A DNA stretch of 64,000 nt from the NCBI RefSeq assembly GCF_000161835.1, contig NZ_GG697169.2, forward strand, positions 357,852 through 421,851, given 5' to 3'. Positions within the stretch are counted from its first letter, which is position 1; each line of letters opens with the position of its first letter. Source of the stretch: Thalassobium sp. R2A62. GTDB lineage: Bacteria > Pseudomonadota > Alphaproteobacteria > Rhodobacterales > Rhodobacteraceae. Shown piece after piece: positions 2,053 to 36,317 of the stretch. Under the pieces are notes generated by a model. It made no database searches. It saw only the letters and a list, made by a program, of their open reading frames with translations, and was not told the origin of the DNA. Both the position numbers and the translations under genes were made by a program.

Positions 2053-2658
2053 ATGGCGCTCGCAATGACAGACAAAGTATTGACCGAGGCCGTTGGGCCG
2101 TCCGAGGGCGCAGCCCGCCTTCTCAAGCAGATCGTATTGGTTGTGCTTGGCGTGGCCCTGCTGGCCCTGACTGCAAAAGTGAAATTTGCGATCCCACCAT
2201 CACCCGTTCCCGTCACCCTGACGACGTTCGGCGTGCTGACAATCGGCGCAGCCTACGGCCCACGTTTGGGGTTTGCGACGATCATTGGCTACCTGCTGAT
2301 CGGCGCACTGGGTTGGGACGTGTTCGCAGGGTCGAGCTCGGAACTTAACGGACGTGAGTATATTATGGGCAGCACTGGCGGCTATCTCGTAGGCTACCTG
2401 TTGGCGACAGTTGCGCTTGGCATGGCGGCACGCGCTGGTTGGGACCGTAGCGTTGTGAAAATGGCGCTGGGGATGCTGATCGGCTCGGCGTTGATCTATG
2501 TTCCTGGCCTGCTGTGGCTCGGCACACTCAACGGCTGGGACAAGCCGATCCTCGAGTGGGGCCTGACACCGTTCATCATTGGTGACCTGATGAAGCTCGC
2601 ACTGGCTGCTTTGATCGTGCCTGCACTGTGGAAACTGATTGGCAACGCACGCACATAA
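2053..2658 (+). CDS. bioY: Biotin transporter BioY
   Basis: S-component of an energy-coupling-factor biotin transporter, 201 residues, inner membrane. About six hydrophobic segments are visible (residues roughly 24-42, 56-74, 78-92, 108-124, 134-158 and 172-192). The BioY signature is present: PPSPVPVTLTTFGVL near residues 55-70, GPRLGF, and STGGYLVGYL near residue 108. A ggagag ribosome-binding site lies about 7 bases before the ATG. No bioM or bioN gene lies beside it, so it either works alone, as some BioY proteins do, or shares an energising module encoded elsewhere. A strong rho-independent terminator follows the stop. Confidence 0.93.
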   Translation: MALAMTDKVLTEAVGPSEGAARLLKQIVLVVLGVALLALTAKVKFAIPPSPVPVTLTTFGVLTIGAAYGPRLGFATIIGYLLIGALGWDVFAGSSSELNGREYIMGSTGGYLVGYLLATVALGMAARAGWDRSVVKMALGMLIGSALIYVPGLLWLGTLNGWDKPILEWGLTPFIIGDLMKLALAALIVPALWKLIGNART

Positions 2659-2697
2659 CCTTTTGGACGTAAGTCCCTGATAGGCCTATAAACAGAA

Positions 2698-2728
2698 AGG
2701 TGCGTCCAGAACTGGACGCGCCTTTTTT
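2698..2728 (+). terminator. Rho-independent terminator after bioY
   Basis: A GC-rich stem (GCGTCC/GGACGC with flanking AGG/CCT pairs) and a 4-5 base loop are followed by six T residues on the + strand, 40 bases after the bioY stop. Confidence 0.85.
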
Positions 2729-2825
2729 GTCTTGTGTTAGGGCGGTTGTTGAGACTGCTTTAGGTTGCTTCAGCAAGTCGCGTGATGACGGCCGAGCTGC
2801 GCTCCATGGTTCGGTGAACCGGACA

Positions 2826-3492
2826 TTAGTCGGCGATTTCTACCAAACGCTGACGTTGGTCATCGCTCAGATCTCCGCGCAGATGGATCTCTCTGGTAAA
2901 GTAATCAACCTTTTTGACAGCAGACGTATCCGCGTCCTGCGCGTGCAGGCTGTTGTGGGTCACATCAACCCAAACATGATCAAGCGGCCACCCTTTGCGG
3001 CGGGCGTACATCCGGATCGTCATCGAAGTGCACGCCCCTAATCCCGCGGCTAAAAACCCGTATGGGGTCATGCCCTTGTTCGTGCCGCCATATGCCATCG
3101 GCTCGTCTGCCAAGGCATGGTGAAATGGTCCTGCATTGATGTCTTGGAGAAAGCCATTCTTGTCGGCCTCGGCGACACGAATAACACCCTCGGGAGCGCC
3201 GATCGGGGGTGCTGGGGGGCGCAGTTTGAGATATTTAGCGGACCAAGTTGCGATGACTTCGGCGGCGTATTCTGCATCGTCCGGTCGGGTGATCAGGTGG
3301 TCTGCATCATCCAAAGTGACAAAGCTCTTGCCCGTGCCCCATTCAACATCGAGGCAAATCACCAATGGTTCTTCGACCTTTTCGATGATGTTCGACAGTT
3401 GTGCGCTGGTTTTTTTTGCAGCCAAGGACATCGTTGTCGCCGAACCCTTCCTTATAGAGTTCGATTTTAGGGCGAGGGGGTGTCAGGCGCAT
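2826..3492 (-). pseudogene. Chimeric pseudogene: KAP P-loop NTPase N-terminus joined to hydrolase/OsmC C-terminus
   Basis: The downstream part (about 2826-3325) encodes the end of an alpha/beta-hydrolase domain (SFVTLDDADHLI) followed by an OsmC-like domain (GGTNKGMTPYGFLAAGLGAC, with its peroxidatic-type cysteine). This matches the C-terminal half of the bifunctional hydrolase/OsmC proteins, about 400 residues. The upstream part, from ATG 3492, encodes the start of a KAP-family P-loop ATPase: MRLTPPRPKIELYKEGF, then KTSAQLSNIIEKVEEPLVI, ending in a Walker A-like DVEWGTGKSF. The two join at a shared K-S-F about 3320-3335. Within the KAP part, a run of eight T (3410-3417) shifts the frame; removing one base restores LGCKKTSAQL. 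Neither parent protein can be made whole. An open frame from 3431 exists but begins inside the shifted zone. Confidence 0.8.
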
Positions 3493-3547
3493 GGGTGCTC
3501 AATCAATTGGTGATAAAGCGTTCATGTTAAGTGGATTTTCCCAAAGC

Positions 3548-4888
3548 TCAATGGCCCATCAACGCCCCATCAAGCGGATAGGTTGTGAGGTTTTCATAGC
3601 CGTCTTCGGTGATGATGACTTGGTCCTCGAGTTTGATGGAGAAATCGCCACCGACTTCGCCGACCAGCGCCTCGACGCACAGGGTCATGCCGGGCTTGAG
3701 TTCATAGTCGAAGGCGCCTGCGACGGCCTTGTCGGGGTAGGCGACGAGGGGCCATTCGTCACATAGGCCCACGCCGTGCATCAGGCAGCCATATTTTTGC
3801 GCCATGTATTTGTTGTCGAGCTTGTGACAGTTGGCGGTCAGCTCGGGGATTGTGACGCCCGGTTTGAGCATCTCCATGTTGGTTTGGATGTGCTCGACCG
3901 CGTGTCTCATGGCATAGACCATGTCAGGACGGGGTTTTTGGTCGCCGATCCACCAGCTGCGCGAGATGTCGATGCAGATGCCATAAGCACCAACCAGGTC
4001 GGTATCAAACGAGATGATTTCGTTCGGTTGGGTGATACGCGGGCCGCATTCCTGAAACCATGGGTTCGAGCGGGGACCAGAGGCGAGCAGGCGGGTTTCG
4101 ATCCATTCGCCGCCGCGTTTGATGTTTTCCGCGTGCAGGACGGCCCAGATGTCATCCTCAGAGGTATTGCCGTTGGGGACGTGTTCGCGGGCGTAATCCT
4201 CCATCTTGCGGACAGCGGTTTCGCAGGCGTGGTTTGCGCAGCGCATGGCGAGCAATTCGTCGGGACCTTTGATCGCGCGGGTGTGTTCGGTGACTTCTTC
4301 GCCGGGGTGCACGTCAAAGCCTTGGGCCTCGAGGGCGCGCAGGCCGTGGAGCATGATTTTGTCGACAGCGAGGCGTTTGTTTCTGGGGACGTGTTCGGCC
4401 AGAAGGGTGCGGACTTCGTTTGAGAAGACATCAGCCGCCACATCAATTTTGTCGCCACGGTCAAAGTAAAACAGGTCAGCGCCTGAGCGTTGTTCACGAA
4501 CCAGCGGGTTGAATGTCGATAAGAACGGCGAGTTTTTGTAGTCCCAGATGATCATATAGCCGTCTGCGCAGACCAAAACACATCTGAACGGATTGTGTGT
4601 GTTCCAAAGCTGCATGTTGGTGCTGTCGGTGGCATAGCGGATGTTGAGCGGATCAAAGAGCAAAATACCGGCGAGGTCGCGTTGGTTGATCTGGGCCACA
4701 AGGCGGTCAAGCCGGAACTGGCGCATGTTGGCAAGGTTGGGCAGTTCAAGGCCTGCGGCCTCCCATTCGCGAAAAGCCAGCTGAGTTGGGCCAATTTCGA
4801 TGCGATCTGCGTCGTTAGGGGTGCCGTCGCCTAGGGTTGCGCCGCGCGACGGGTCAATCTTGCGCGTGTCGCGATAATGGGTGTTCAT
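3548..4888 (-). CDS. dddP: DMSP lyase DddP
   Basis: Metallopeptidase-fold (M24 family) enzyme of 446 residues that cleaves dimethylsulfoniopropionate to dimethyl sulfide and acrylate in the cytoplasm. The N-terminus (MNTHYRDTRKIDPSRGATLG) and full length match roseobacter DddP. The metal ligands reported for this enzyme fall at the expected positions when I count residues: Asp295, Asp297, Asp307, His371, Glu406 and Glu421. LMHGVGLCDEWP near 369-380 is also characteristic. It is transcribed divergently from the N-demethylase-like gene at 4996. No DMSP transporter or acrylate-use gene lies beside it. Ordinary M24 aminopeptidases lack this N-terminus, so confidence is high. Confidence 0.94.
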   Translation of the reverse strand: MNTHYRDTRKIDPSRGATLGDGTPNDADRIEIGPTQLAFREWEAAGLELPNLANMRQFRLDRLVAQINQRDLAGILLFDPLNIRYATDSTNMQLWNTHNPFRCVLVCADGYMIIWDYKNSPFLSTFNPLVREQRSGADLFYFDRGDKIDVAADVFSNEVRTLLAEHVPRNKRLAVDKIMLHGLRALEAQGFDVHPGEEVTEHTRAIKGPDELLAMRCANHACETAVRKMEDYAREHVPNGNTSEDDIWAVLHAENIKRGGEWIETRLLASGPRSNPWFQECGPRITQPNEIISFDTDLVGAYGICIDISRSWWIGDQKPRPDMVYAMRHAVEHIQTNMEMLKPGVTIPELTANCHKLDNKYMAQKYGCLMHGVGLCDEWPLVAYPDKAVAGAFDYELKPGMTLCVEALVGEVGGDFSIKLEDQVIITEDGYENLTTYPLDGALMGH

Positions 4889-4995
4889 GGCTGGCCTCCC
4901 TGTGTGTTGTTTGACATGGTGGAGGCGGGAATTGGGCCTGTCCGGTCTGATTGCGACATGCTGAGTGGTCTGTTTGCGGCGCGATTGGGGGGTGG

Positions 4996-27516: not shown

Positions 27517-27849
27517 ATGGAAAAGAACAAATGTGGAAACAGATGTTCGCCAGAGGTACGCGAACGTGCTGTACGGATGGTGTTTGAGCATCAGGGCGAA
27601 TTTGACAGTCAGTCTGCAGTGATCAAATCGATCGCGCCTAAGATTGGTTGTGGGCCTGATACGCTTCGGGCGTGGGTTCGACGAGCTGAGGCGGACAGCG
27701 GTCGACGTGATGGTGTGACGACGGCTGAACGTGACCGGATCAAAGCCCTGGAGCGCGAGAACCGCCAGCTTCGGCAAGCCAATGAGATACTGAAGAAAGC
27801 ATCAGCGTATTCCGCTCAGGCGGAGCTCGACCGCCCGTTTCGGAAGTGA
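27517..27849 (+). CDS. IS3-family transposase OrfA
   Basis: A 110-residue DNA-binding subunit. The helix-turn-helix is in [20 protein letters not shown] and [20 protein letters not shown], and a leucine-zipper-like helix follows ([20 protein letters not shown]). It ends [17 protein letters not shown] and overlaps OrfB by four bases. In this group OrfA alone limits transposition, and an OrfAB fusion made by programmed -1 frameshifting is the active transposase. Both frames are intact, so the element may still be active. Confidence 0.9.
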
Positions 27850-28745
27850 TCAGCTTTATCAAAGAACATCGTGATGTCTGCGGGGTCGAGCCGATTTGTC
27901 GCGTTTTGCAGATTGCCCCTTCGACGTTCTACGCGCATCTGGCCGTCGAGGATGATCCAGACAAAGCGTCGGATCGCGCCAAACGTGATGCTGAATTGCG
28001 CGCTGAGATGAAGCGGATTTGGGACGATAACCAGTCTGTCTATGGTGCCCGTAAACTGTGGCATGCCATGCGCCGCGAAGGCTATGATTTGGCGCGCTGT
28101 ACGGTTGAGCGGCTCATGCGTGACATCGGTATCGAAGGTGTCCGTCGCGGCAAGAAGGTCAAAACGACTTGGGCAGACAAGGCTTTGCCGTGCCCGATGG
28201 ACCGAGTGAACAGGCAGTTCCGCGCAATAATGCCCAACCAACTCTGGGTGTCAGATTTTACCTACGTCTCGACCTGGCAAGGGTTTGTCTATGTGGCATT
28301 CGTCATCGATACCTTCGCCAACAAGATCGTCGGTTGGAAGGCCTCCAGATCGCAGCAGACACAGTTTGTCTTGGACGCGCTTGAACAGGCCCTTTACGAA
28401 AGACGGCCTTCAGAGAGCCTGATCCATCACAGCGATCGGGGCAGCCAGTATCTGTCGATCAAATATACCGAACGCCTCGCTGATGCGGGCTTGGAGCCGT
28501 CTGTTGGAACAGTCGGTGACAGCTATGATAACGCGCTGGCCGAGACGATGTTTGGCCTGTTCAAAGCCGAAGTCATCCACAGATTGGGGCCATGGAAATC
28601 CGCTGACGCGGTCGAGTGGGAAACGCTCAATTGGGTCGACTGGTTCAACAATCGCCGACTGCTCGAACCCATCGGATACATCACACCAACTGAGGCAGAG
28701 GAGGCCTTCTATGCAAACATGAACACACTCGATAAAGTCGCTTGA
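27846..28745 (+). CDS. IS3-family transposase OrfB (DDE integrase)
   Basis: A 299-residue catalytic subunit starting at GTG 27846. Domains in order: helical HTH_21 region ([20 protein letters not shown]), the rve core with the first Asp in [20 protein letters not shown], the second Asp in [13 protein letters not shown], and the Glu in [20 protein letters not shown]. The end [20 protein letters not shown] is typical. All three DDE residues are present. It is translated by frameshift from OrfA or by coupling at the overlap. Confidence 0.93.
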
Positions 28746-29664: not shown

Positions 29665-30819
29665 CTATTGATTGGCGCGTTCGGCTTCGATCCGGCGCCA
29701 AACAGCGACGTTGCTGTTGTGGTCGTCGAGGTTTGTTGCAAATGCGTGCCCACCCGTGCCGTCCGCCACAAAGAAGATATATTCGGTGGTGTCTGGGTTC
29801 AGCGCCGCTTCGATCGCCGCGCGCCCTGGATTTGCGATTGGGGTGGGGGGCAGTCCGGCGATCACATAGGTGTTCCACGGTGTTTCGCGGCGCAGTTCGG
29901 ATTGACGCAGTCCACGACCCAAGATGCCTTCGCCCTTGGTAATGCCATAGATGACTGTCGGGTCGGTTTGCAGCTTCATCCCGCGGTTTAGGCGGTTGGT
30001 AAAGACGCTGGCGACTTGGAACCGTTCGTCTGCCACGCCAGTCTCTTTTTCAACGATAGAGGCGAGCACGAGGGCCTCTTCTGGAGAGGCAAGAGGGAGG
30101 TCTGATGCGCGCTTGGACCATGCGTCTGCAAGGATGCGCTCTTGGGCTGACGTCATGCGCGTGATCACGTGTGAAACGGCCATCTCGGGGGTCAGTTCGT
30201 AGCTGTCTGGCGCGAGGGAACCTTCGGGTGGTGTGTCAGAGAATTCTTCCCCCATCACTTCTAACCCATTGAGGGCATTGACAACTTGCCAGCTGGTTAC
30301 GCCTTCGGCCACAGCGACACGGTAGCGTGTGTCGGATAGGTCGCGGACGCGAGTGTAGTCTTCGGGGGTTTCGTCAACTTCGGGATTGAACGATGCCTTT
30401 TCAACAAAGCGGTTGGTTGCAGGGTCCAGTTGACGGACTTGGGTTGTGACGCTGTTGATGCCAACACGGTAGACGACTTCTGTGCCGCAAGTAGATTGGC
30501 CGCCGCGTGTCACGATGTCGATGATTTCTTCCATCGTGCTGGCCTCTGGGACCAGAAAGCTGCCTGCCTTCAGTTGGCTGGTTTTGTCAGTGTAGTCGGC
30601 GCCCATGCGGAACAGCGCGCGCGAACCGATGGCGCCTTGTTCGACTAGGTCTTCGGACACACGGGTCATGTTTGAGCCGCTTTCAACACGCAGACAGATC
30701 GCTTGGTCCAGCGGACCCTCAGCGCGGAACTGTTGCTGGCCCCAAACAATGACACCCGCCACTAAGAAGGCTGCGACAACGAGAAATGTCAGTGCGTTCG
30801 AGGCGATGTGGCGCCACAT
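29665..30819 (-). CDS. mltG: Endolytic murein transglycosylase MltG
   Basis: A 384-residue inner-membrane lytic transglycosylase that cuts nascent glycan strands and limits their length. There is an N-terminal anchor (ASNALTFLVVAAFLVAGVIV, residues 7-26), a LysM-like region, and then the YceG/MltG catalytic domain with LASIVEKETGV (the catalytic Glu), LQTDPTVIYG, YNTYVIAGLPPTPIANPG-like WNTYVIAGLPPTPIANPG, and the end FVADGTGGHAFATNLDDHN. It overlaps the fabF stop by one base. In relatives it follows fabF on the fabD-fabG strand; here the whole block is inverted. Confidence 0.95.
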   Translation of the reverse strand: MWRHIASNALTFLVVAAFLVAGVIVWGQQQFRAEGPLDQAICLRVESGSNMTRVSEDLVEQGAIGSRALFRMGADYTDKTSQLKAGSFLVPEASTMEEIIDIVTRGGQSTCGTEVVYRVGINSVTTQVRQLDPATNRFVEKASFNPEVDETPEDYTRVRDLSDTRYRVAVAEGVTSWQVVNALNGLEVMGEEFSDTPPEGSLAPDSYELTPEMAVSHVITRMTSAQERILADAWSKRASDLPLASPEEALVLASIVEKETGVADERFQVASVFTNRLNRGMKLQTDPTVIYGITKGEGILGRGLRQSELRRETPWNTYVIAGLPPTPIANPGRAAIEAALNPDTTEYIFFVADGTGGHAFATNLDDHNSNVAVWRRIEAERANQ

Positions 30820-32081
30820 TAGCCAGTCACCTTGCCAAAGACGACGGACGCATTGGTGCCACCAAAGCCAAAGGAGTTCGACAAGGCGATGTTGATTTCT
30901 CGCTCGACTTTCTTGTTGGGGGCAAGGTCAACGGAGGTCTCGATCGCTGGGGTGTCGAGGTTGATGGTGGGCGGGGCCACCTGATCGCGGATCGCGAGGA
31001 TCGAGAACACAGCTTCGATTGCGCCTGCAGCGCCCAAAAGGTGGCCTGTCGCAGATTTGGTTGACGACATGGTCACCGAGCCTGCTGCGTCGCCCATCAT
31101 CCGTTCGACAGCGCCCAATTCAATGACGTCTGCCATGGTCGATGTGCCGTGGGCGTTGATATAATCGACATCCGCAGGTTCGATACCGGCGTGCTTGAGC
31201 GCGGCGCGCATGGAGCGTTCACCGCCTTCGCCGTCTTCGGACGGGGCTGTGATATGGTAGGCGTCGCCAGAAAGGCCGTAACCCAGCACTTCTGCATAGA
31301 TTTTGGCGCCGCGTGCTTTGGCGTGTTCGTATTCTTCGAGAACGACGACACCGGCACCTTCGCCCATCACAAATCCGTCGCGGTCTGCGTCGTAGGGACG
31401 GGACGCTTTGGTTGGATCGTCGGCGCGTTTGGTCGACAACGCCTTGCATGCGTTGAAACCTGCAATACCGATTTCACAAATGGATGCTTCGGCACCACCA
31501 GCGATCATCACGTCAGCATCGCCGTATTTGATCAGGCGAGATGCATCACCAATCGCGTGCGCGCCGGTTGAGCACGCTGTGACCACAGCATGGTTAGGGC
31601 CTTTGAACCCGTATTTGATGCCGACCTGGCCCGAAACCAGGTTGCTCAGCGCACCAGGGATAAAGAAGGGGCTGACGCGGCGTGGGCCGCGCTCTTTGAT
31701 CATCACTGCTGTTTCTGCGATGGATTTCAGGCCACCGATGCCAGAGCCGATCATGACGCCAGTCCGCTCGAGGCTCTCTTGATCCTCGGGCATCCAGCCA
31801 GCGTCTTCTACAGCTTGCTGGGCTGCTGCGACACCAAAGAGGATAAAGTCATCAACTTTGCGCTGTTCTTTGGGGGCCATATAGGTGTCGGCATTGAATG
31901 TGGCGTCTGTGCCGTCCCCCAAGGGAACTTCGCATGCATACCCAGTGCCAAGGTGAGAGGCATCAAATTGCTTGATTGTGCCCGCGCCAGACTGTCCGCC
32001 TAAAAGACGCGACCATGTAGGCTCGACGCCGTCTGCCAAAGGGGTGACGAGACCCAAGCCTGTTACAACTACTCGACGCAT
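30819..32081 (-). CDS. fabF: 3-oxoacyl-ACP synthase II (FabF)
   Basis: A 420-residue condensing enzyme for fatty-acid elongation, from ATG 32081 (MRRVVVTGLGLVTPLADGVE). The active-site Cys is in AVVTACSTGAHAIGDA (near residue 168), and the two His are in NAHGTSTMADVIE and TKSATGHLLGAAGAIEA. The C-terminal NSFGFGGTNASVVF is standard. It lies downstream of acpP, separated by a terminator-like hairpin, and is coupled to mltG. It is intact despite the rearrangement. Confidence 0.96.
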   Translation of the reverse strand: MRRVVVTGLGLVTPLADGVEPTWSRLLGGQSGAGTIKQFDASHLGTGYACEVPLGDGTDATFNADTYMAPKEQRKVDDFILFGVAAAQQAVEDAGWMPEDQESLERTGVMIGSGIGGLKSIAETAVMIKERGPRRVSPFFIPGALSNLVSGQVGIKYGFKGPNHAVVTACSTGAHAIGDASRLIKYGDADVMIAGGAEASICEIGIAGFNACKALSTKRADDPTKASRPYDADRDGFVMGEGAGVVVLEEYEHAKARGAKIYAEVLGYGLSGDAYHITAPSEDGEGGERSMRAALKHAGIEPADVDYINAHGTSTMADVIELGAVERMMGDAAGSVTMSSTKSATGHLLGAAGAIEAVFSILAIRDQVAPPTINLDTPAIETSVDLAPNKKVEREINIALSNSFGFGGTNASVVFGKVTG

Positions 32082-32381
32082 ATTCTGCCCTCGCTTTTGA
32101 TCACATGTGGGCATCTATTTATGCGCGATCCCCACATCGTTTCGCGCTGGATACAACGGCAAGCCCCTATGGGGCAAGAGCAACGGTCAATGAAAGAACT
32201 GCGTGCACTTTTGAGACCTTGGAATCGGCAAAGGCCCGCGCAGATTTTGTTGCGCTTTGTCTTGCTTTGGTGTGGAGGGACAGGGCCATGTCGAGGGCAA
32301 AGAAACCCAAGCAGGATTCGGATTCGGTGCGAAAGAAAGGGCCGTCGGGTGATGGTCATATGAATGAAGTGTCAGCCAAAG

Positions 32382-32417
32382 AAAAACGCGCCCAAGCTGT
32401 GTGCTGAGCGCGTTTTT
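32382..32417 (-). terminator. Terminator between acpP and fabF
   Basis: AAAAACGCGC and GCGCGTTTTT flank a 16-base loop and give U-tracts in either direction. It lies 54 bases after the acpP stop, so many acpP transcripts probably end here, giving the high acpP:fabF ratio known for this locus. Confidence 0.7.
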
Positions 32418-32470
32418 AAATGTCGTGGGACGGATCCGTCCATGTCCGCCGCGATGGCGGTTCGGGCGTC

Positions 32471-32704
32471 TTAGGAAGCGGCCGAGATGAACTTTACGGC
32501 GTCGCCGAAAGTCTGAATGGTTTCAGCAGCGTCGTCTGGGATTTCGATGCCGAATTCCTCTTCGAACGCCATAACCAGTTCAACGGTGTCCAGGCTGTCT
32601 GCGCCCAGGTCGTCGATAAAGGACGCGGCTTCCGTCACTTTGTCTTCTTCTACACCAAGGTGCTCTACTACGATCTTACGAACGCGATCTGCGACGTCGC
32701 TCAT
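32471..32704 (-). CDS. acpP: Acyl carrier protein
   Basis: A 77-residue acidic protein from ATG 32704 ([20 protein letters not shown]). The phosphopantetheine serine is in [20 protein letters not shown] (Ser37). The four-helix layout and length are canonical. A longer in-frame start (32761) adds residues not found in ACPs. It is the first gene of the inverted acpP-fabF-mltG block. Confidence 0.97.
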
Positions 32705-33161
32705 GTGCAAGTCCTCATCTTTTGGGGGCCGAGGCCCATAGGGTGCATGCGAGAGTTGCATGCTGTGTTGCCCATATGGGCGGCTTAGTGAACCTTAGGT
32801 AAGGTCCGATCAGCCGTGGCGCAAGGTCCACAGCCTTTTGGTTGTGCGCCGCCTATAGCATAGGTGCGACAAGGTGCAAATGGTTTCGCAAGCACACAGT
32901 TTTGGCCGGTTACAGCGCGTTGACGAGCGCCGCGGCACAAGGTGAAACACCTGCTTGGGGCGCTTGAGAGGTTAAGTAAGTCCTATCATTGCGAACGGTG
33001 GTTGAAACCTAAGTTACTGGTAAGGCTTGACTTTATGGGGTTTTGTGGGTTGGTTCTCAGTTTGTAGCTAGAGGCCAATTTGTCAGTCTGGGCAGCGTGG
33101 ACGACAGGCCTGATGTGGCTTTCCCTTTGTGGCGGTTTCCCCCCAATACAGGCAGTTCATT
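32705..33161. other. Intergenic region between acpP and the GTA remnant
   Basis: About 450 bases without a convincing gene. It should hold the acpP promoter (minus strand) and any surviving GTA promoter (plus strand). It is also one breakpoint of the inversion: on the standard gene order mltG, not acpP, would face the GTA genes here. No repeat was recognised at the breakpoint. Confidence 0.55.
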
Positions 33162-33530
33162 ATGAAAATGGATCAAAAACAGACCCCCGAGCAGGGTGGC
33201 GTGCGAGGTGAAGTGGGTGAGGCTTTGCCAATGGAACGGCTAGGCGACAGTTTGGTTTTGTTCCGCCGCATTAGTGCCGATTTGACTGAAATGCTCCGGC
33301 GAATGGACGCCGGAGAGGACGGTTCAGCCACTGAAATGACGAAACGACAAAAGGAACTCGAGGCGGCTTTGCGGCTGTCTTTGGAACTGGAGAAACGGCT
33401 TGATGAACGATCAGACAAGGAAAACGGGCTCCTTGGGGAGGTCATCGACTTTGACGCAACACGGCGTTCGATCAGGTGCAAGCTTGGTCGCTTGCGCAGA
33501 TGTAGCAGATCAGGCCGCGTTTCTGAGTGA
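33162..33530 (+). CDS. GTA small terminase-like protein (orfg1)
   Basis: A 122-residue protein from ATG 33162 (MKMDQKQTPEQGGVRGEVGE); ATG 33168 or GTG 33129 are alternatives. It is helical: RLGDSLVLFRRISADLTEML and MTKRQKELEAALRLSLELEK, a coiled-coil-like stretch, then an Arg-rich tail (DFDATRRSIRCKLGRLRRC). Position just before the terminase gene, length and helix pattern match orfg1 of Rhodobacter-type gene transfer agents. With the structural genes gone it can have no packaging role unless it acts with another GTA or phage. Confidence 0.6.
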   Translation: MKMDQKQTPEQGGVRGEVGEALPMERLGDSLVLFRRISADLTEMLRRMDAGEDGSATEMTKRQKELEAALRLSLELEKRLDERSDKENGLLGEVIDFDATRRSIRCKLGRLRRCSRSGRVSE

Positions 33531-35127
33531 ACTTGATGAGGCAGAGCTTCGTGCTCTGCCTTTTCTTTTTGAGTTCTGAGCGTTCGAGCATCAGTTGCCG
33601 CCCGAGGGGCACTGGCGCACATGGGTAATTTTGGGCGGTCGCGGTGCTGGCAAAACGCGCGCAGGCGCAGAATGGGTGCGTGCGCAGGTCGAGGGATCAG
33701 GGCCGCTGGATGTGGGGCCAGCGACCCGTGTTGCATTGGTCGGTGAGACAATTGAACAAGCCCGCGAGGTGATGGTCTTTGGTGAGAGTGGGATTTTGGC
33801 CTGTTCGCCCGATGACCGTCGTCCGGTTTGGAGCACTACGCGTCGCCAACTGTGTTGGCCGAACGGCGCAGTCGCTCAGCTGTTTTCGGCCAGTGATCCT
33901 GAGCGGCTGCGTGGACCGCAGTTTGATGCGGCATGGGTGGATGAGCTGGCCAAATGGAAAAAGGGCCAAGAGGCGTGGGATATGCTGCAGTTTGGTATGC
34001 GGCTAGGCGATGATCCGCGTGTCTGTGTGACGACAACGCCGCGCAATGTGGGTGTGCTACGAAGTTTATTGGCACGATCGTCGACGGTGACGGCTCATGG
34101 CACAACCGAAGCGAATGCGGCGCATTTGGCGGACGCGTTTCTGGATGAGGTGCGCACAAGATACGCTGGCACGCGATTGGGGCGCCAGGAATTGGATGGT
34201 GTGTTGCTTGCGGATGCTGAGGGCGCGTTGTGGACGTCGAAGGGGTTAGAGGCCAGTCATGTAGAAGTCGTGCCGCAGTGCGATCGCGTGTTGGTATCGG
34301 TGGATCCGCCGGTCACAGGGCACATGGGATCGGATGATTGCGGAATTATCGTAGTAGGCGTGACGATGGACGGGCCACCACAAGATTGGCGGGCATATGT
34401 GATCGAGGATGCAACAGTTGCGGCTGCGTCACCGCTTGAGTGGGCCGAGGCCGCGGTTGCGGCATACCACCGCCATGGGGCAGAATGTTTGGTGGCTGAG
34501 GTGAACCAAGGCGGATCACTGGTAGAAGCCGTCGTCCGACAGGTCGATCCGCTGGTGTCATATACATCTGTCCGCGCGAGCAAGGGCAAGGTGGCCCGGG
34601 CAGAGCCAGTGGCCGCGCTGTATGAACAAGGGCGGGTGCATCATGTCGGTTCGCGGGTTGTCTTGCTTGATGGCGTGCCTGAGCAAATTGGCTTGGCGGC
34701 GAGTGCGCGCGATGTGGCGCGGCACTTCCGATATGGTCCTGCTCTGCGGCCCAATGACGATCCGTCCTACCAATACGAGGTGCAGGCGTTCCAAGGGATC
34801 GGCCTGCGGCCATACGCGCCATGTCACATCAACGTGGTTCAAGACGGAGGAGACACGGCCGTCTCATGGATCCGCCGAACGCGAATTGATGGGAACGCTT
34901 GGGTCGGGTTGGACGTGCCATTGGGCGAGGCCAGTGAGCAATATCTGGTACGTGTCATTGTTGAAGGGGCGATTGTCCGTGAAACCGTCGTGACCTCGAC
35001 AACCTGGACCTATTTTACAGGCCTGCGATCTGCGGATACTGGTGGGGCGAATTACCAGCTTGCGGTCGCGCAAGTGTCTGAAAAGTTTGGACCAGGTCCA
35101 TTCAGATCGGTGGATGTCGCAGCCTGA
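33403..35127 (+). pseudogene. GTA large terminase fused to tail-tip/host-specificity protein, with nonsense codon
   Basis: The gene starts at ATG 33403 inside orfg1 and runs 58 codons (ending ELRALPFLFEF) to a TGA at 33577, where relatives have Trp (FEFWA..HQLPPEG). The same frame then continues HQLPPEGHWRTWVILGGRGA with Walker A GGRGAGKT and Walker B-like AAWVDEL, and nuclease motifs (VLVSVDPP, YEQGRVHHVGS). Near base 34650 the sequence changes to RVVLLDGVPEQIGLAASARD, ARHFRYGPALRP and RIDGNAWVGLDVPLGE, which is the C-terminal part of the GTA host-specificity (orfg15) protein. Everything between, normally portal, capsid, protease and tail genes, is missing. A downstream start (33595) would leave a 510-residue chimera. 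Confidence 0.85.
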
Positions 35128-35429
35128 TGCGGGGGCTGTTGGTCGAAGATATCATCATGGCGGCACGGGCGGCGATGTCCGTGCCGCCAGAGGCGCAGGA
35201 CCAGTTGGTTGCGGATATGCTGCGGGACCCGCATCTCGCAGATTGTGCCCGCAAACGGCTAGGTCGCGGTTTGGCCGGACGTGGGGAAGGGGCGCTGATG
35301 TCAGCCGCAACGGCGCGACCGTTGGCGCCTTTGCCGGGCAGATGCATCGTGGAATTCCTCGCGGCGATGCGGATCGTCATTGATGGGATAACCTGTTGGA
35401 AAGCGAGAATTGCCGATCAAAATCAGTGA
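35127..35429 (+). CDS. DUF7742-like small protein of the GTA locus
   Basis: About 100 residues. Its ATG overlaps the stop of the terminase/tail-tip chimera by one base. It contains VEDIIMAARAAMSVPPEAQD and RGEGALMSAATARPLAPLPG, followed by a short helical end. This kind of protein usually sits between orfg15 and cysE in Rhodobacteraceae and matches the DUF7742 family as I recall it. It has no known activity. It survived the GTA deletion because it lies outside the lost segment. Confidence 0.55.
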   Translation: MRGLLVEDIIMAARAAMSVPPEAQDQLVADMLRDPHLADCARKRLGRGLAGRGEGALMSAATARPLAPLPGRCIVEFLAAMRIVIDGITCWKARIADQNQ

Positions 35430-35507: not shown

Positions 35508-36317
35508 ATGGGTAAGCTGAATACAAATGTGACATCTGTCGATCCGGTCTGGGATCGGATCAAGTCAGAGGCAACCGAGGCCGTCGCAGGAGAGCCGCTG
35601 TTGGGCGGTCTCGTGCATTCTAGCATTTTGCATCACGACACGCTTGAGGCAGCTTTGGCATTTCGCATGTCGATGAAGCTTGCATCCGGTGAAATGTCTG
35701 AACAGATTTTGCGCGAGATCGCAGATGAGGCATATGCCGCGGCACCGGAGCTGTCGGCCGCTGCGCGTGCAGATCTGGTGGCCGTGTTCGAACGCGACCC
35801 AGCTTGTCACCGGTTTATTCAGCCGTTGCTGTATTTCAAAGGGTTCCAAGCGATCCAAGCTTACCGTATGGGGCATTGGCTGTGGGAACAGGGCCGCAAA
35901 GATTTATCCTATTTCATTCAAATGCGCGTGTCCGAAGTTTTTGGCATCGACGTGCATCCAGCCGCTAAGATTGGGCAGGGGATCATGATCGATCACGCCC
36001 ATTCGATCGTCATTGGTGAAACGGCTGTGGTCGGCGACAATGTATCGATGCTGCATTCCGTCACATTGGGTGGTACAGGCAAAGAAGACGACGACCGTCA
36101 TCCCAAGATCGGCGATGGTGTTTTGATCGGTGCCGGCGCCAAGGTTCTAGGGAACATCGAGATTGGCCATTGCAGCAGGATTGCAGCGGGTTCAGTCGTT
36201 CTGGAAACTGTCCCTCCGATGAAGACCGTTGCGGGTGTGCCTGCGCGGATCGTGGGCGAGGCGGGCTGTTCACAGCCGTCCCTAACGATGGATCAGTTGC
36301 TGAACGACGGCGCTTAA
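35508..36317 (+). CDS. cysE: Serine O-acetyltransferase
   Basis: A 269-residue cytosolic enzyme that acetylates L-serine for cysteine synthesis. The N-terminal helical domain (DPVWDRIKSEATEAVAGEPL) precedes the left-handed beta-helix. The catalytic and CoA motifs are GIDVHPAAKIGQGIMIDHAH, GETAVVGDNVSMLHSVTLGG, KIGDGVLIGAGAKVLGNIEI and AAGSVVLETVPP. It directly follows the GTA locus, its usual place in this family. A bidirectional terminator follows the stop. Confidence 0.96.
   Translation: MGKLNTNVTSVDPVWDRIKSEATEAVAGEPLLGGLVHSSILHHDTLEAALAFRMSMKLASGEMSEQILREIADEAYAAAPELSAAARADLVAVFERDPACHRFIQPLLYFKGFQAIQAYRMGHWLWEQGRKDLSYFIQMRVSEVFGIDVHPAAKIGQGIMIDHAHSIVIGETAVVGDNVSMLHSVTLGGTGKEDDDRHPKIGDGVLIGAGAKVLGNIEIGHCSRIAAGSVVLETVPPMKTVAGVPARIVGEAGCSQPSLTMDQLLNDGA

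Follow-up and report, generated by a model that had tools for sequence, protein, structure and literature searches.

The closest known counterpart of the locus reported here is RcGTA, the gene transfer agent (GTA) of Rhodobacter capsulatus. Its cluster, genes g1 to g15, has yceG upstream and g16 and cysE1 downstream (PMC9552610). A standing question is what maintains GTAs when their production is lethal to the producing cell (PMC6209664, PMC10883770). GTA loss itself is already known. Pseudogenisation and complete loss have been described in several alphaproteobacterial lineages, and cheaters have been proposed (Kogay et al. 2024, PMC10883770); roseobacters of the RCA cluster also live without complete GTAs (PMC10675870). 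In the literature that we searched, neither an in-frame terminase/tail-tip chimera nor a recurrent identical junction is described.

We describe the GTA locus of Thalassobium sp. R2A62, located in a stretch of 64,000 nucleotides that we analysed as a whole and call the window. The source genome (G000) is a single contig of 3,487,925 bases and is 99.99% complete. The locus shares with RcGTA the gene order at both ends, the neighbouring genes, and homologous g2 and g15 parts. In contrast to RcGTA, the window is devoid of g3-g14 and most of g15, g2 and g15 are fused, and the activator gafA is broken; no particle would be possible. This resembles the pseudogenised and lost GTAs of the proposed cheater lineages (PMC10883770), where individual lineages likewise lost production through deletion and pseudogene formation, and the RCA cluster, where a complete GTA is also absent. 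We interpret the locus as an RcGTA-like GTA that was inactivated recently, the in-frame fusion being a by-product, a reading to which we assign a probability of about 0.88. A complete genome seen just after cluster loss, with its lysis cassette intact, may help to place the steps of GTA loss in time and in sequence. The surprising part is a terminase/g15 junction that recurs, identical, in other genera.

A terminase joined in frame to the end of g15

The locus reads acpP-fabF-mltG, g1, chimera, DUF7742 (g16), cysE, the usual address of GTA clusters (Table 1). The preliminary description had placed orfg1-like sequence on the left and a DUF7742-like gene and cysE on the right, and all three were recovered. 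The g1 homologue, which overlaps the 5' start of the g2 frame, gives weak matches to the g1 region of four relatives (G081, G056, G132, G390).

Table 1. Features of the GTA remnant, its neighbours and associated genes in Thalassobium sp. R2A62 (window positions unless a contig is named).
Feature	Position	Strand	Basis and remarks
IS3-type transposase ORF	27846-28745		By eye from translation; ~5 kb left of the GTA remnant
mltG/yceG	29665-30819	-	ORF; same neighbour in relatives; left-hand block overall 29665-32761
fabF	30819-32114	-	ORF; same neighbour in relatives
acpP	32471-32761	-	ORF; same neighbour in relatives
g1 homologue (rcc01682-like, GTA small terminase)	33162-33530	+	Open ORF; GTG 33129 or ATG 33162
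g2, N-terminal 58 codons	33403-33579	+	Alignment with relatives; terminated by TGA 33577-33579
Chimera, 510 aa	33595-35127	+	Single open frame; TTG start
Large terminase g2, main part	33595-34644	+	Pfam Terminase_6N/6C; alignment
Deletion junction HHV/GSR	34643-34654	+	Terminase residue ~425 / g15 residue ~1162 (G009 numbering)
g15 end (Rcc01698, tail-tip "megatron", fibre-binding end), last ~159 residues	34648-35127	+	tblastn to g15 of relatives
g16 (rcc01699-like, DUF7742)	35127-35429	+	Pfam PF24891, E = 6.7e-17
cysE (cysE1-like serine acetyltransferase)	35508-36317	+	Pfam; same position in relatives; conserved right-hand GTA neighbour
gafA (DUF6456, GTA activator)	G000:C1:682171-682569 (L078)		Frameshifted
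Holin (PF11351)	G000:C1:951719-952048 (L066)		2.8e-28; open

The first part of the chimera is recognised by Terminase_6N (residues 12-214, 3.7e-29) and by Terminase_6C (residues 235-353), the latter over profile positions 2-114 of 155 only. In this terminase half, GRGAGKT (Walker A) and VDE (Walker B) mark the ATPase domain, and an initial portion of the RNaseH-like nuclease is present; alignment with relatives shows that it has lost the C-terminal ~50 residues, including the motif SPDRVDALVW. In the family sample, residues 1-350/359 match the terminase of relatives with up to 76% identity, and residues 348/352-510 align, at up to 59%, with the C-terminal end of a tail-tip ORF of ~1300 aa. In 40 relatives the two halves usually give separate matches, with the tail tip 12-14 kb downstream. 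Against G009, a relative with a complete structural cluster, the second half aligns with g15 residues 1162-1321 at 46.9% identity (E = 1e-39), and the lost stretch, judged by the G009 spacing, measures ~12.0 kb. The proposed resemblance of the 3' part to orfg15 thus holds, and the join, previously put near base 34650, lies near 34645.

The g2 frame carries a second lesion. As the preliminary description had noted, a TGA stands in place of the Trp of LFE-x-W / LFEFW that aligned Rhodobacterales terminases keep, at codon 59 counted from the ATG at 33403. The 510 codons are open as claimed, but because the TGA interrupts the frame from 33403 they are left without a good start codon, the only candidate being the TTG downstream of the stop. 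With this stop and with SPDRVDALVW deleted, the large terminase is not intact. What remains is RcGTA-like: g2 and g15 homology at the conserved mltG-cysE address. Phage terminases also match the first 70% of the chimera, at up to 51% identity, as they might if the remnant came from an ordinary prophage and not from a GTA; the GTA clusters of relatives, however, match at up to 76% and lie at the same place on the chromosome, with mltG on one side and cysE on the other. Address and identity refute the prophage reading, which has a negligible chance of being correct.

The end of g2, the genes g3-g14 and the first ~88% of g15 were probably lost in a single internal deletion of ~12 kb. That the join is in frame may be accidental, with odds of one in three, or may owe something to a few shared bases. 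The join is known from one genome record, and one may ask whether a fault of assembly or collection falsely joined two ends of an intact cluster. This is very unlikely, given that the genome is a single contig, that no long repeat lies at the two ends of the join, and that independent lesions, the TGA and the gafA frameshift, point to GTA loss too.

The rest of the GTA system and the age of its loss

Across the whole genome, the terminase family search and the chimera search each returned 1 place. A concatenated query of g3, g4 and g5 (portal, protease, capsid) with g6, g9, g12 and g13 matched 0 places in G000 and retrieved all parts from the control, G009. By this query, the portal, capsid, protease and tail genes reported as missing from the locus have no match elsewhere in the genome, which lacks a complete head-tail cluster, from terminase and portal through protease and capsid to tail and tail tip, and has no second or intact GTA cluster. 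An ordinary split locus with an intact cluster elsewhere is refuted in this one-contig, 99.99% complete genome, and the GTA is most probably dead. DUF2793, a head-spike marker, is absent from G000; it is also absent from G020, which has an apparently complete cluster, and its absence is thus uninformative.

Two observations go beyond the preliminary description. The activator gafA is broken too, its N-terminal HTH and C-terminal DUF6456 halves lying in different frames, and fusions of this terminase/g15 kind are found in other members of the family, joined there at a single identical codon. The gafA frameshift alone is no proof of GTA loss, because G009 has one as well (L077) despite its complete structural cluster. 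The lysis cassette appears to persist: the holin is open and adjoined by an open endolysin-like ORF of 203 aa, recognised by eye and not by family search, such that a GTA-type holin has survived the loss of the particle genes. The nonsense mutation in g2 and the frameshift in the distant gafA would complete the inactivation. The cell would no longer build particles and would be a GTA non-producer, a "cheater" in the published terminology, left with an apparently intact lysis cassette. Such losses may spread through freedom from lytic GTA production.

Little has decayed since. Of positions unchanged across relatives, here called invariant, 2 of 109 in the terminase and 1 of 28 in the tail tip are changed in the window; other sequences have 0-4 changes of either. 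A rough Poisson bound, using about 300 nonsynonymous sites at invariant positions, limits the neutral divergence accumulated after the loss to less than about 2%. The small number of changed invariant residues implies that the loss is recent or that the fusion is under selection, and the stop, the missing start and the broken gafA favour a recent loss. This agrees with the earlier proposal of a GTA being lost and, of its two options, recent or tolerated, favours the former. Purifying selection on the fusion would, from sequence alone, also be compatible with its protein-level state, where no decay beyond one stop is visible.

In-frame terminase/g15 chimeras in other genera

A junction-peptide search revealed another in-frame terminase/g15 chimera, of ~830-900 aa, in 17 of 398 family genomes, each from a different genus. 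In this canonical form, the terminase runs to the W-x-D-E of Walker B (g2 192) and continues as x-G-C-x-A-x-D-K-G of the g15 TIM barrel (~668). By Pfam, one protein combines Terminase_6N (2-105), GTA_TIM (204-299), Phage-tail_3 and Rcc01698_C. Examples are L089 (G135) at 2232-4742, L091 (G056) at 2356-4893, L099-L101 and L135-L143. Full-length open frames (827-904 aa) are found in 13 of the 17; 1 runs off its contig, and 3 are broken, by frameshift in G068 and G370 and by a stop in G300. The query used detected no GTA-like structural genes elsewhere in these genomes, only distant (22-41%) prophage-like matches, and on these grounds a split locus was rejected for them. An intein was also considered, as matches to the terminase of other genomes stop at aa 119 within ORFs of 827-878 aa; the remainder is g15.

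The window chimera and the canonical chimera are alike in construction, an N-terminal terminase part and a C-terminal g15 part joined in frame at the address of GTA clusters. They differ in junction (g2 ~425 / g15 ~1162 in the window), and the canonical junction peptide W-x-D-E/x-G-C has no match in G000. They differ also in their activator: gafA is uninterrupted in 15 of the 17 canonical-chimera genomes, unlike in G000, G003 and G013.

The canonical chimera appears to have originated repeatedly. Trees of the shared parts were built with FastTree and by a quick search with IQ-TREE for 16 of the 17, G134 being too short; on them the chimera label needs 10 changes, or 8 on well-supported branches alone, and G056 carries the chimera while its congener G390 is intact. 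The junction residues follow lineage in the two cases checked: G081 has ATG (the rare TEMGC) like G009 and G065, and G068 has TAT (TEYGC) like G129. Recurrent origin is well supported by these trees and junction codons. Spread of one junction by introgression was rejected on the same lineage-specific residues and on 90-nt junction-side windows, which are no less similar to the nearest intact relatives than to other chimeras. A repeat-mediated hotspot was rejected as well, since in every intact genome tested g2 and g15 share direct repeats better than the canonical junction. Local matches that surpass it number 53-345 in one comparison of intact genomes, and a comparison by 20-nt windows in 32 intact genomes gave 26 to ~5000 better diagonals. 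In IMG/VR and PLSDB, the strict canonical junction pattern gave 0 matches; among the best 80 matches, the peptide search found only g15, and plasmids gave only g15 or terminase separately. A locus without a capsid would scarcely be expected in viral collections, and this outcome is therefore uninformative.

These chimeras bear on whether the fusion in the window is a by-product. In-frame terminase/g15 fusions recur in related genera more often than expected if frame were irrelevant. Pairwise omega of the canonical chimeras is 0.13-0.32, like that of intact pairs, and broken invariants are in no clear excess once K3 and P4, which overlap the terminase side, are set aside. The window chimera could have been kept for a new function, for instance as an ATPase/tail-fibre-docking protein with other phages or GTAs as its targets, translated from a start downstream of the TGA. 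Its open 510 codons, the conservation of its catalytic and invariant residues at the level of intact genes, and the canonical chimeras, mostly open and with omega like that of intact pairs, all fit such a role. On the other side stand the TGA with only a TTG start after it, the broken gafA, a junction found in no other genome examined, and three canonical chimeras that have already been disrupted. The TGA and the gafA frameshift make a functional product unlikely, and retention for a new function is improbable overall; recent inactivation remains our reading of the window locus.

As to the canonical junction, the breakage of 3 of the 16 chimeras that could be judged argues against strong selection, and one identical junction among many possible ones, with gafA kept, argues against pure neutrality. 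A mutational hotspot, selection for the product and an unrecognised collection artefact all stay in contention as its cause. A tentative view, held with well under even confidence, is that separate ~11 kb deletions in different genera repeatedly make one in-frame gene while gafA is kept, through site-specific breakage and joining or through repeated selection of the chimera, for example because it interferes with GTAs or phages; the window would then hold an off-site case of this collapse. Should the recurrent junction hold in reads and cultures, it would point to a programmed-like deletion or to repeated selection for one chimeric protein.

Other collapsed or damaged GTA loci

In a sample of 170 family genomes with a completeness of 95% or more, 15 have no match at all, and several carry collapsed loci. 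Individual breakpoints among collapsed loci are mostly unique. In G018, g2 74 is joined to g15 813 in frame. In G003 (L058), a single-contig genome, g2 381 meets g15 317 out of frame, and gafA has a stop; a further group of g9-, g12- and g13-like genes, divergent in sequence, lies near C1:2472775-2475168. G058 keeps a frameshifted g2, a fragment of g3, and g15 from 939 (the last ~380 residues); its breakpoints differ from those of the window, and it is not in frame. G013 combines frameshifted g2 and gafA with a large internal loss, and G088 and G115 are also among the collapsed loci with individual breakpoints.

Two damaged loci break close to the canonical site. G177 (L102, ~7829) is a g2/g9 case whose terminase breaks at QFDAA, three codons before that site, and continues out of frame into g9, with g10-g15 remaining. 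G045 (L273, ~1980-2050) has an internal in-frame g2 deletion (AAWV/AEVNQGG); its 5' end is again at Walker B, with a partner other than the canonical one. Farther afield, a Hyphomicrobiales MAG (L047) encodes, within 2.3 kb, a terminase together with a short C-terminal ORF resembling g15, and may hold a further collapsed GTA. In G121 (C6:1475706-1476788, L093), the open frame containing a GTA terminase extends to 906 aa, far over the usual length, possibly through fusion to the following portal gene.
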